Part shown: piece by piece, positions 17,557 to 20,889 of the stretch
Numbering within the stretch: the stretch's first letter is position 1
How the letters are laid out: each line of letters starts with the position of its first letter
DNA from: Luteolibacter pohnpeiensis
Lineage (GTDB): Bacteria; Verrucomicrobiota; Verrucomicrobiia; Verrucomicrobiales; Akkermansiaceae
Direction: 5' to 3'
Assembly: GCF_016595435.1 (NCBI RefSeq)
Contig: NZ_JAENIJ010000005.1
Span: 62,001 to 126,000, forward strand
Length of the DNA: 64,000 nucleotides
Position numbers and translations under genes: made by a program
Notes under the pieces: generated by a model
Databases searched by the model: none
What the model was told of the DNA's origin: nothing
Seen by the model: the letters and a program-made list of their open reading frames with translations, nothing else

Positions 17557-18492
17557 TTACTTCGATTGCTCAAGCATGCGGAGCAGTGGGGCTTCTGCGC
17601 GCTTGCGAATCGATTCGTCCATCTCCACGCGTGGCTCGAGATTTTCCAAGCAATCGCGGAGTTTCTCCAAGGTATTCATTTTCATGTAGCGGCAATCGGC
17701 GCAAGCGCATCGATCGGTAGGGCCCGCGATGAGATTTTTATCCGGGGCTTCTTTGCGCAAGCGGTGCAACATGCCGCTTTCGGTGACGACAATGATGTTT
17801 TTTACCGGCGCGTTTTTCACGTAGGTCACCATTTTTTCGGTCGAACAAACCTCGTCCGCCAAGAGTCGCACGGCTTGGGTGCATTCCGGGTGGGCGACGA
17901 CCAATGCGTCGGGAAACTCTGCCTTGATGGCATGGATCGAGTCGCGCGTGAACTCGACGTGGACGTAGCAATTGCCTTTCCAGAGATCCATCTTGCGGCC
18001 GGTTTGCTCCATGACCCATGCACCGAGGTTTTCGTCCGGGACGAAGAGAATCGGGCGATCCGCAGGTGCTTGATTCACGATTTTCACCGCATTGCCGGAA
18101 GTGCAAATCACGTCACAAAGTGCTTTTACCGCTCCGGAGCAGTTGATGTAAGCGATGACGTAGTAATTCTTGTCCGCGTTTTCTTTGAGAAATGCCTCAA
18201 GTTGTGGAGCGGGGCAGGATTGTTCCAACGAGCAACCGGCATCTTTGTCTGGTAGAACGACAATTTTCTCCGGATTCACAATCTTCGCTGTCTCCGCCAT
18301 GAAATGCACGCCGCAGAACACAATGACGTCGGCATCGGTTTCTTTCGCTTGATAAGCGAGGCCGAGCGAATCTCCGACGTAGTCACCGAGGTCCTGAATG
18401 TCACCAGTCTGGTAGTTGTGCACCAAAATGACGGCATTGCGGGATTTTTTGAGGGCGAGAATTTCCTCTTTGAGGTCCAGGGAGGCTTGCAT
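17557..18492 (-). CDS. nadA: Quinolinate synthase A
   Basis: NadA condenses iminoaspartate with dihydroxyacetone phosphate to make quinolinate for NAD synthesis, using a [4Fe-4S] cluster. The sequence shows HNYQTGDIQDLGDYVGDS near the start and the three cluster cysteines in CGVHFMAETAK, INCSGAVKALCD and the C-terminal CACADCRYMKMNTL. The length of 311 is normal. It is the only NAD gene here (no nadB or nadC nearby). The strand agrees with the bactofilin genes upstream, with a 30-bp gap. Confidence 0.95.
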   Translation of the reverse strand: MQASLDLKEEILALKKSRNAVILVHNYQTGDIQDLGDYVGDSLGLAYQAKETDADVIVFCGVHFMAETAKIVNPEKIVVLPDKDAGCSLEQSCPAPQLEAFLKENADKNYYVIAYINCSGAVKALCDVICTSGNAVKIVNQAPADRPILFVPDENLGAWVMEQTGRKMDLWKGNCYVHVEFTRDSIHAIKAEFPDALVVAHPECTQAVRLLADEVCSTEKMVTYVKNAPVKNIIVVTESGMLHRLRKEAPDKNLIAGPTDRCACADCRYMKMNTLEKLRDCLENLEPRVEMDESIRKRAEAPLLRMLEQSK

Positions 18493-18522: not shown

Positions 18523-19350
18523 TCAAGCAGACGGGCGAACCATTTCGATCGTTCCGGTATGCTTGGCACCACTTTTCACCACCAGGGAAGTGGTGCGGAC
18601 CAATCCCTGAAGGCGGGCGCGTTTTTCCAGAGTCACCGGTCCGCTGCAACTAATTTGGCCACGAACTTGACCATCGATGTATGCACTGCGGGCGCTGACC
18701 GGGTTGAGGAATTCGACTTTGGCCCCTTTTTCGACGCGGAGCTGGTCGCAATTGACCTTGCCGAGAATTTTGCCGTGCGAGCGGATGATCAAATTCCCCG
18801 AACAATCAACGGATCCCGCGAGCTCGCCGAGAACCGTAAGGTGGTGGCATTGAATGGTAATTCCGGAAACATGGCCGGTCTTGAGGATGACCACATTGCC
18901 ACGAGTTTGAATCCGTCGATTCCATGCCTCAGCGATTTCGTAATCCTGGAGGCTGATGTAGCCGCTGCAGCGCGGGCACTGGCTTGATTGGGCCTCGGCT
19001 GGTGCCTGGTGGACAAAGCCACAGCTGAAGCAGGTGATTTCCCGCATCTGTTTCCTGCCCCAAAGAAATCGCAACAGTGGATGCTGCGGTTTGGGGAGGG
19101 ATCGGGGGATGAGAGAAGAACCCAATGATTCCGCCTTGGGTTGGCGAGTAGGCTCTTGCGGCTGGACTGGTTTTTTCGCAACCAGTCGAGTGGATGGTTT
19201 GGGGCGGGAGACGGCAGCACCATCACGCACTTGAAAATTGGCGCGACAGCCCCGGCATTGGGTAGAGACTACCAATGCCGGTTCCCATTGACGGTGCCCG
19301 CATTCGGGGCACGTCAACTCAATGCGATGGCGCTTCGGCTCATCGGCCAT
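18523..19350 (-). CDS. Bactofilin-domain protein with two N-terminal zinc ribbons
   Basis: Residues 1-45 contain a zinc ribbon (CPECGH...CRGC) and residues about 105-135 a second one (CFSCGF...CPRC), joined by a Pro/Lys-rich linker. About residues 150-270 form a bactofilin (polymer-forming) beta-helix: successive short repeats such as GKILGKVNCDQLRVEKGAKVE. Bactofilins polymerise without nucleotide; the added zinc ribbons are unusual and may bind nucleic acid or protein. The next gene in the same direction upstream (19378-19950) encodes a conventional bactofilin, so the two may co-polymerise. Confidence 0.75.
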   Translation of the reverse strand: MADEPKRHRIELTCPECGHRQWEPALVVSTQCRGCRANFQVRDGAAVSRPKPSTRLVAKKPVQPQEPTRQPKAESLGSSLIPRSLPKPQHPLLRFLWGRKQMREITCFSCGFVHQAPAEAQSSQCPRCSGYISLQDYEIAEAWNRRIQTRGNVVILKTGHVSGITIQCHHLTVLGELAGSVDCSGNLIIRSHGKILGKVNCDQLRVEKGAKVEFLNPVSARSAYIDGQVRGQISCSGPVTLEKRARLQGLVRTTSLVVKSGAKHTGTIEMVRPSA

Positions 19351-19377
19351 TTTTTTAGCTATGAAGCGGCGTGAAGG

Positions 19378-19950
19378 TTAGGACTTGGAGGTCCCGGCAA
19401 GGGTGCCCTGCTGTGGAGCGCTCGTTGCGGCAGCTGGCTTGCTGGCCGATGATTTATCGGATGCAGGGGCTTGAGCTGGAGTGCCGACGGTGGACTTACC
19501 GACGAAGATGGCACCGGCTTCGATCGAAAGCGTTTTTGCTTTGATGTCGCCGACGACTTCAGCGCTGGCTTTCAGTTCGATGCGATCTGCAGCGGTGAGG
19601 TTGCCGTGCACTTTGCCGTAAACCACGATGGTTCCGGTTTTGACTTCGGCTTTGATGCGAGCATTTTCGCCGATCGTAAGATTTCCTTCGGAGGTGATTT
19701 CGCCTTCGATTTTGCCATCGACGACAAGATCATTGGTGAACTTGACAGTGCCTTTGATTTCGACGTCGGAAGAGAGAACGTTGCGAGTCGTAGCAGCCTG
19801 CGGGCGTGCGGCTGGCGCAGGGGCGGCAGCTGGAGCAGCGGCTGCGTAGGCAGGAGCCGCAGGGGCAACAGGAGCTGCTGGTTGTGGTGCTTCTGGAGGA
19901 GTTGGGCGAGATGGATCGCCGAGATCTTGGCCAATTACTTTTTTGAACAC
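19378..19950 (-). CDS. Bactofilin (polymer-forming cytoskeletal protein)
   Basis: This 190-residue protein has a central bactofilin beta-helix (about 58-150: VEIKGTVKFTNDLVVDGKIE and similar turns). An Ala/Pro-rich N-terminal linker and an Ala/Ser/Thr-rich C-terminal tail flank it, which is the classic bactofilin layout. The start is GTG at 19950 with no in-frame ATG close by. Bactofilins form filaments that place peptidoglycan and envelope enzymes. It is followed 27 bp later by the zinc-ribbon bactofilin and preceded by the TPR membrane protein. Confidence 0.9.
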   Translation of the reverse strand: MFKKVIGQDLGDPSRPTPPEAPQPAAPVAPAAPAYAAAAPAAAPAPAARPQAATTRNVLSSDVEIKGTVKFTNDLVVDGKIEGEITSEGNLTIGENARIKAEVKTGTIVVYGKVHGNLTAADRIELKASAEVVGDIKAKTLSIEAGAIFVGKSTVGTPAQAPASDKSSASKPAAATSAPQQGTLAGTSKS

Positions 19951-19998: not shown

Positions 19999-20889
19999 TC
20001 ATGACCCGGAAGGAGGATTTCCCTCATTGCCCGGCATTGCTGGAGTTGGCTCAACCGGTAATTCCGGAGCTGTAGGAGGCTCTGGAGTAGTTGGGAGCAA
20101 ATCTTCGGGTGTTGGATCTGCCGGCACATCACCTTCCGTCGGGAACATTCCCGCAGGCGGATTGGTGGATGGCTGGAGAAATGGGGAAGAGGTAGGATTG
20201 CCCGGAGTCGGCAGGGTTGGATCCGGAGCCGGTGGCGCATCAATTTCAACGGGCGGCTTGGCTTTCAAGCTCGAGATCCGATCGTTTGCGGTGCTGAAAA
20301 ATGAGCTCGAAGGATACTCGTTGCGAGCACGCTCATAGTAGGATTGCGCTTGGTCCAGATCGTTCGCCACTTTGGAAATATCGCCCAGTGAGATAAGTGC
20401 GTAGGGGGCGATGTAGCGGGCGGATGGGTCGGCTACCAGTTCTTCGAGAAGCTTCTTGGCTTCGTCGGATTTGCCCTGGGAAACCAATTTGGAGGCGAGA
20501 CTGGCTTTTGCCGTTGGTTTGGCGGGGTGGTCAGGATGGCTGCTGAGGAAATCCTTCAAGGTTTTGACCGAATCGTCAGGATTGCCTTCTGTCCACTGCT
20601 GGTCGGCCAAAAGCATCATCGCGCTACCGGCGGCCGTGGTGTCCGGGCTTTCTTTGATCACGGCTTGGAAATCAGCGATTTTCTCAGCTTTGACCAAGGC
20701 TTCACCGGCGGTGATCTCCTTGTTGTTTTCCAAGCTCCGATAGATCAAAAACGAAGCTGCCCCCAGCACGGCGACAACGGCGAGGACCGCGACTCCTTTT
20801 TGGTGGCGGTCCATGAACTGCTCGAATTTTCCGGTGTTCAGGCTGGATTCACCAAATGGGCTTGCTGTGTCAAAACGGTCTAGAGACAT
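19999..20889 (-). CDS. YfgM-like membrane-anchored TPR protein
   Basis: A cytoplasmic N-terminus of about 30 residues precedes one membrane helix (about 34-52). A TPR-type helical region (about 60-225) follows, with pieces such as ALISLGDISKVANDLDQAQS. A Pro-rich tail of about 65 residues ends the 296-residue protein. This matches the YfgM/TPR_21 layout (ancillary translocon or envelope chaperone factor), but the Pro tail is extra. It is the first gene of the short minus-strand set with the two bactofilins, 48 bp upstream. Confidence 0.65.
   Translation of the reverse strand: MSLDRFDTASPFGESSLNTGKFEQFMDRHQKGVAVLAVVAVLGAASFLIYRSLENNKEITAGEALVKAEKIADFQAVIKESPDTTAAGSAMMLLADQQWTEGNPDDSVKTLKDFLSSHPDHPAKPTAKASLASKLVSQGKSDEAKKLLEELVADPSARYIAPYALISLGDISKVANDLDQAQSYYERARNEYPSSSFFSTANDRISSLKAKPPVEIDAPPAPDPTLPTPGNPTSSPFLQPSTNPPAGMFPTEGDVPADPTPEDLLPTTPEPPTAPELPVEPTPAMPGNEGNPPSGS

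Follow-up and report, generated by a model that had tools for sequence, protein, structure and literature searches.

The question raised by this locus is why one of two neighbouring bactofilins should carry two cysteine ribbons in front of its bactofilin domain, and what such ribbons could contribute to a filament. The window analysed here is a stretch of 64,000 nucleotides from Luteolibacter pohnpeiensis (contig NZ_JAENIJ010000005.1, positions 62,001 to 126,000), in which genes are longest-ORF calls and coordinates are counted from the first letter. On the minus strand, running from 20889 to 17557, the order is a TPR_21 protein (19999..20889, TPR_21 47.5 bits), the plain bactofilin P0002 (19378..19950, GTG start, 190 aa), the ribbon bactofilin P0001 (18523..19350, 275 aa) and a gene at 17557..18492 that we take to be nadA-like. 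Gaps of 48, 27 and 30 bp separate the four genes, which form an apparent operon with the TPR_21 gene first; the nadA-like gene is found in the same place in 8 loci and is regarded as a neighbour only. Both bactofilins score well above the Pfam Bactofilin cut-off of 27.9 bits (PF04519; P0002 96.6 bits, P0001 84.8 bits). A plain bactofilin followed by a ribbon-bearing one, with a TPR protein in the same row, was what the sequence-only reading had described, and all three genes were found as described, the TPR gene lying upstream.

The same reading had placed two CxxC-CxxC ribbons at the N-terminus of P0001. Both are present, each with the spacing C-x2-C-x14-C-x2-C, but they are not adjacent. Ribbon 1 occupies residues 9-43 (19222..19326, minus strand; Cys 14, 17, 32 and 35) and is followed by a linker, residues 44-100 (19051..19221), modelled mostly at low confidence with pLDDT below 50 for most of residues 53-91. 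Ribbon 2, residues 101-134 (18949..19050; Cys 107, 110, 125 and 128), abuts the beta-helix of residues 135-271 (18538..18948). The AlphaFold models of P0001 and of the homologue from Chthoniobacter flavus (mean pLDDT 85.6 and 85.8) agree on this succession of ribbon 1, arm, ribbon 2 and then directly the beta-helix, with ribbon 2 and the helix reaching block means of roughly 90 pLDDT or higher in both; in P0001 the block means are 94-96 for residues 11-40 of ribbon 1 and 94-97 for ribbon 2. A right-handed beta-helix core is thus predicted, of which residues 170-271 match residues 12-112 of Thermus TtBac. This comparison, made by VIA-align, does not single out bactofilins, tapirin and other beta-helix proteins reaching equally high scores (P0001 against 6rib: Z 13.6, rmsd 1.8, 98 aligned; against 2n3d: Z 12.8; the C. 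flavus model: Z 13.3 and 12.5, respectively). In the model the helix of P0001 starts some 35 residues ahead of the part matching TtBac, residues 135-169 forming an N-terminal extension. Foldseek by itself returned no match at E ≤ 0.001. Three helix cysteines, at positions 168, 183 and 201, are spaced at about one per turn in P0001, with alanine as the main alternative among homologues, and probably form a buried stack.

Conservation of the ribbon cysteines, which the sequence-only reading presupposed, is complete for ribbon 2, and that reading survives in this respect. In an alignment of 68 of the 81 ribbon proteins then collected (A1), with 19-68% identity to P0001, the four ribbon-2 cysteines are kept in 68/68 and are the only invariant columns. 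Two further alignments, A4 and A6, comprised 47 and 32 of the 80 loci from a contig scan together with the sequence of the window. The exact ribbon spacing recurs in all 50 loci from other classes of Verrucomicrobiota, and with this degree of conservation the ribbon pattern exceeds chance. The two-ribbon form is found in 56 of the 68 homologues, with Chthoniobacter flavus Ellin428 and many Chthoniobacterales MAGs among its carriers, and ribbon 1 has conserved residues of its own (Q-x-E and S-T). In other classes, the ribbon proteins of the 40 loci examined (L244-L283) have a single ribbon with a short N-terminal segment ahead of it. Ribbon 2 thus seems to be the ancestral module, and ribbon 1 a later gain in the class of the window, most of whose ribbon proteins have both. 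The stretch that takes the place of the ribbon-1 region elsewhere is often DGF-like, 46/50 fitting a loose pattern.

The cysteine pattern suggests that both ribbons bind zinc. A weak profile similarity (E 7e-4) links ribbon 2 to a known four-Cys zinc ribbon, ribosomal eS27, the best non-bactofilin PDB match of the profile; P0001 itself stays under the cut-off for every Pfam ribbon model, the best being Anti-TRAP with 20.0 bits (cut-off 32) and zinc_ribbon_6 reaching 17.9 bits (cut-off 27). Net charge has a median of 0 in ribbon 2 and of +2 in ribbon 1, and by this measure a strong nucleic-acid charge signature was not seen in either.

The distribution of the ribbon protein was followed in whole-genome searches drawn within Verrucomicrobiota. 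A profile of the 68 homologues gave one match each in 136 of 285 genomes of the class at E ≤ 1e-20, leaving 149 without a ribbon protein; a single-protein search had matches, plain bactofilins included, in 147 of the 285. PF04519 itself was matched in 168 class genomes, in 6 of them below the Pfam cut-off. All 136 genomes with a ribbon protein are among these 168, the other 32 have a PF04519 match only, and no genome of the 285 combined a ribbon protein with the absence of any PF04519 match. A phylum-wide draw of 387 genomes, partly overlapping the class set, gave 140 with a match at E ≤ 0.001, again including plain bactofilins; the 50 other-class loci referred to throughout are the genomes of this draw counted by hand at E < 1e-20, all of which were taken. 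The contig scan, run with patterns from a few class members, yielded verrucomicrobial records, of which 80 of 96 were kept. Spread by plasmid or phage was considered and rejected: tblastn found no plasmid record, and the one phage record, with 23% identity over residues 153-268, was without ribbons.

Pairing with a plain bactofilin is close in nearly all ribbon loci. Among 206 of them, which include related species and some genomes twice as contig-scan loci repeat class genomes, 200 have a plain bactofilin immediately upstream in the same orientation, at a median gap of 25.5 bp. The six exceptions comprise three loci cut at a contig end and three in which the bactofilin-like ORF upstream is divergent, 94-103 aa long and below the threshold. 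In 11 loci of the same family as the window (L224-L234) the ribbon gene is absent while the TPR and plain bactofilin genes are kept in 11/11; a nadA-like gene lies downstream in 7 of them. A plain bactofilin without a ribbon protein thus occurs, and a ribbon protein without any bactofilin match does not, so that the ribbon protein appears to need the plain one and not the reverse. Four loci (L098, L102, L103 and L108) have a further plain bactofilin in convergent orientation directly behind the ribbon gene.

With the ribbons removed, the cores of 120 bactofilins (30 per group, of 245 in all) separated in a tree into ribbon and plain proteins with 0/120 misplaced and a support of 0.79, a split to which the different rules used for cutting the cores of the two kinds could have added. 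The split, which is moderately supported, is consistent with a single duplication before the classes of Verrucomicrobiota split. P0001 is best regarded as a specialised paralogue whose pairing with a plain bactofilin is old and has been closely kept across the phylum.

The specialisation extends to the residue on which polymerisation depends in a studied bactofilin. In the parts of PMC12448750 drawn on here, BacA of C. crescentus is reported to need F130 for polymerisation. Mapped via BacA and TtBac, in which the corresponding interface residue is Phe105, this position is F149 in P0002 and His264 in P0001 (codon 18559..18561, minus strand). Of 60 plain partners, 58 have phenylalanine here; 18 of the 68 ribbon proteins do so, the others having mainly leucine (24) or histidine (14). 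The position is often still hydrophobic, with L, V, I or Y in 34/68, and the ribbon proteins of Chthoniobacterales mostly keep F, so that some ribbon proteins may still be able to self-assemble. The C-terminal interface Phe, a trait of filament-forming members and not of the domain as such, is absent from P0001. P0002 begins with MFKKVIGQ, which resembles the membrane-targeting motif published with the consensus MFSKKKK, a motif common in bactofilins though not universal; P0001 starts with MADEPKRHRIELTCPECG and is without the motif, as are, by a loose pattern, many plain partners in the other classes. Compared with the classical bactofilins Caulobacter BacA and Thermus TtBac, P0001 shares the beta-helix domain of PF04519 over the Pfam cut-off but differs in the zinc ribbon or ribbons in front, the additional 35 or so residues of beta-helix, the missing membrane-targeting motif, the polymerisation Phe that is mostly replaced in its family and the plain bactofilin as a neighbour.

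Genes next to the pair differ between the class of the window and the rest of the phylum. Within the class, relatives of the TPR protein gave 29 hits near the pair among 161 loci (duplicates included), most of them within about 800 bp. They occur in two arrangements: 10 loci, every one from the family of the window, have the relative ahead of the pair on the same strand, and 19 of the 161 have it behind the pair in convergent orientation. The convergent form, immediately following the ribbon gene, is seen in several families of the class besides that of the window (L044, L047, L065, L067, L069, L071, L075, L077, L078, L082, L093 and others). Of six relatives checked, TPR_21 was over the cut-off in three, just under it in two and unlisted in one, and all six matched other TPR models; the 50 other-class loci yielded no relative of the TPR protein. 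The TPR protein had been read as standing in a row with the pair, and it does recur there, but the row takes two forms and exists without a ribbon gene as well. That it partners the ribbon protein specifically was rejected, since all 11 ribbon-less loci of the same family keep it beside the plain gene. It is a candidate partner of the bactofilin module in this class, and the only recurrent one there.

Other neighbours appear in the 50 loci of other classes. A Mur ligase gene lies directly downstream of the pair on the same strand in 24 of these loci and 9 of 24 families (7/24 loci confirmed by domain search), and parB lies downstream on the same strand in 14 loci and 11 of 24 families, with a gap below 300 bp in 13 and of 569 bp in one (9/14 confirmed by domain search, 5 by phmmer to one confirmed ParB). 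No relative of either was found near the pair in 161 class loci. The pair-linked ParB is the only ParB over the cut-off in nine of nine parB-linked genomes tested (G515, G521, G402, G324, G404, G429, G477, G412 and G396), where a strong ParA match is on another contig in seven, about 775 kb off in one and about 5 kb off in one (G515). In the genome of the window the strong parA and parB matches are likewise on different contigs (C243 and C199). The ligase linked to the pair belongs to the MurC family and scores under the murC cut-off. That it is the ordinary MurC was rejected, a separate MurC over the cut-off being present in 9 of 12 Mur-linked genomes searched; of the remaining three, G410 has another MurC at 325 bits (cut-off 335), G330 one at 228 bits, and G557 (88% complete) the linked one only. 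These neighbours make chromosome partition and peptidoglycan-precursor synthesis suggestive candidates for the functions served by clients of the ribbon module, as far as gene order can indicate. However, 12 of the 14 loci with parB have argC, an unrelated metabolic gene, in front of the pair, so that kept gene order alone is no proof of function. A comparable caution comes from M. xanthus, where bacM adjoins parAB yet is reported, in the sections of PMC5703909 consulted, to act only in cell shape.

Taken together, these observations lead us to propose, with a probability of about one half, that P0001 acts as an accessory subunit, entering or terminating the filament of the plain bactofilin, and that its ribbons are protein-docking modules. 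P0002 would make the filament, its polymerisation and membrane binding being suggested by features of its sequence. P0001, with its longer beta-helix, the obligatory ribbon 2 in front of it and, in most class members, a second ribbon on a flexible arm, would probably build no long filaments alone. That it joins or ends the filament of its neighbour is suggested by the loss of the polymerisation Phe in most members, the close pairing and the one-way dependence; the synteny likewise points to co-assembly of P0001 with P0002. The ribbons would then dock client proteins onto the bactofilin scaffold. The proposal made from the sequence of the window alone was that the ribbons tether nucleic acid or an envelope enzyme to the filament. 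Its general part, that they hold something, gains from the conservation of the pair and of the ribbon cysteines across the phylum; its two named partners fare differently, as set out below.

The main rival to the docking reading is that P0001 is a capping subunit, in which ribbon 2 has a structural role, as a lid closing the beta-helix at its N-terminal end, and one-ended binding limits filament length, with no recruitment involved. Two models confidently place ribbon 2 immediately ahead of the helix, the Phe at the opposite helix end is altered in most members, and ribbon 2 is universal while ribbon 1 is optional, all of which would suit a cap. A cap alone leaves unexplained the second ribbon, which sits on a flexible arm and shows Q-x-E and S-T conservation of its own, and we consider this reading possible but clearly the less probable one; docking and capping can both hold. 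A further proposal is that the ribbons bind DNA or RNA and so anchor the chromosome to a bactofilin filament bound at the membrane. The parB gene downstream in 14/50 other-class loci, encoding the sole ParB over the cut-off in the 9/9 genomes tested, and the weak similarity of ribbon 2 to eS27 would fit it. The median net charges of 0 and +2 and the absence of a parB relative from the 161 class loci argue against it, and zinc ribbons mediate protein-protein contacts as well. Nucleic acid as the tethered partner is thus not supported so far by charge or by the eS27 match (E 7e-4), and the nucleoid tether seems unlikely to us.

The ribbons might also act as zinc or redox sensors that lose zinc or oxidise under stress and thereby switch bactofilin assembly. 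Cysteine clusters together with frequent cysteines in the beta-helix (C168 in 42/68 homologues, C183 in 45/68) could be read in this way, but the helix cysteines alternate mainly with alanine, as buried small residues would, and four-Cys zinc ribbons are usually stable. We hold this explanation to be very improbable.

Returning to docking, the envelope enzyme named in the sequence-only reading finds indirect support in the MurC-like ligase behind the pair in 24/50 other-class loci and none in the 161 class loci. A bolder extension is that the ribbon subunit is a built-in adapter throughout the phylum, which would bind ParB (or ParB on parS) or the MurC-like ligase depending on the lineage; we regard this as speculative and rather doubtful. 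Were it true, chromosome partition or cell-wall precursor supply would be tied to the filament without a PadC or a Csd5, and wherever parB belongs to this operon instead of neighbouring parA, positioning of the chromosome origin would fall to the filament. Two known systems offer a comparison, each as presented in the parts of the source drawn on here. The BacNOP-PadC-ParABS system of M. xanthus resembles the present one in that several bactofilins are encoded together and, by adjacency in 14/50 loci, a link to ParB is suggested; in M. xanthus, however, ParA is recruited via PadC, a separate ParB-like adapter, and the bactofilins are typical in architecture, whereas the link here is genomic only (PMC5703909). 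The CcmA-Csd5-MurF shape complex of H. pylori also joins a bactofilin with a Mur ligase, but has one bactofilin and the membrane adapter Csd5, while the ligase here is MurC-like, below the murC cut-off, and linked by genomic position only (PMC9507126).

In the literature searched, outside the scope of which lay most subscription papers and bioRxiv preprints, no report was found of a bactofilin with a zinc ribbon or with zinc binding, nor of a bactofilin in Akkermansia, and Verrucomicrobiota bactofilins seem little studied. The bactofilin fold is known; as far as this literature goes, the zinc-ribbon bactofilin closely paired with a plain bactofilin is new. Client recognition by bactofilin scaffolds is described as still poorly understood in the parts of PMC12448750 used here. 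A bactofilin fused to an invariant, putative binding module and paired with a filament former would provide a direct handle on this recognition, as the ribbon could be deleted or altered while the filament is left alone.

The genome of the window holds two further genes of the kinds discussed. One is a second MurC-family ligase, at 285 bits under the murC cut-off (G000:C186:8099-9448), and the other a third bactofilin, which stands alone in a 138-aa open frame (G000:C122:29039-29326).
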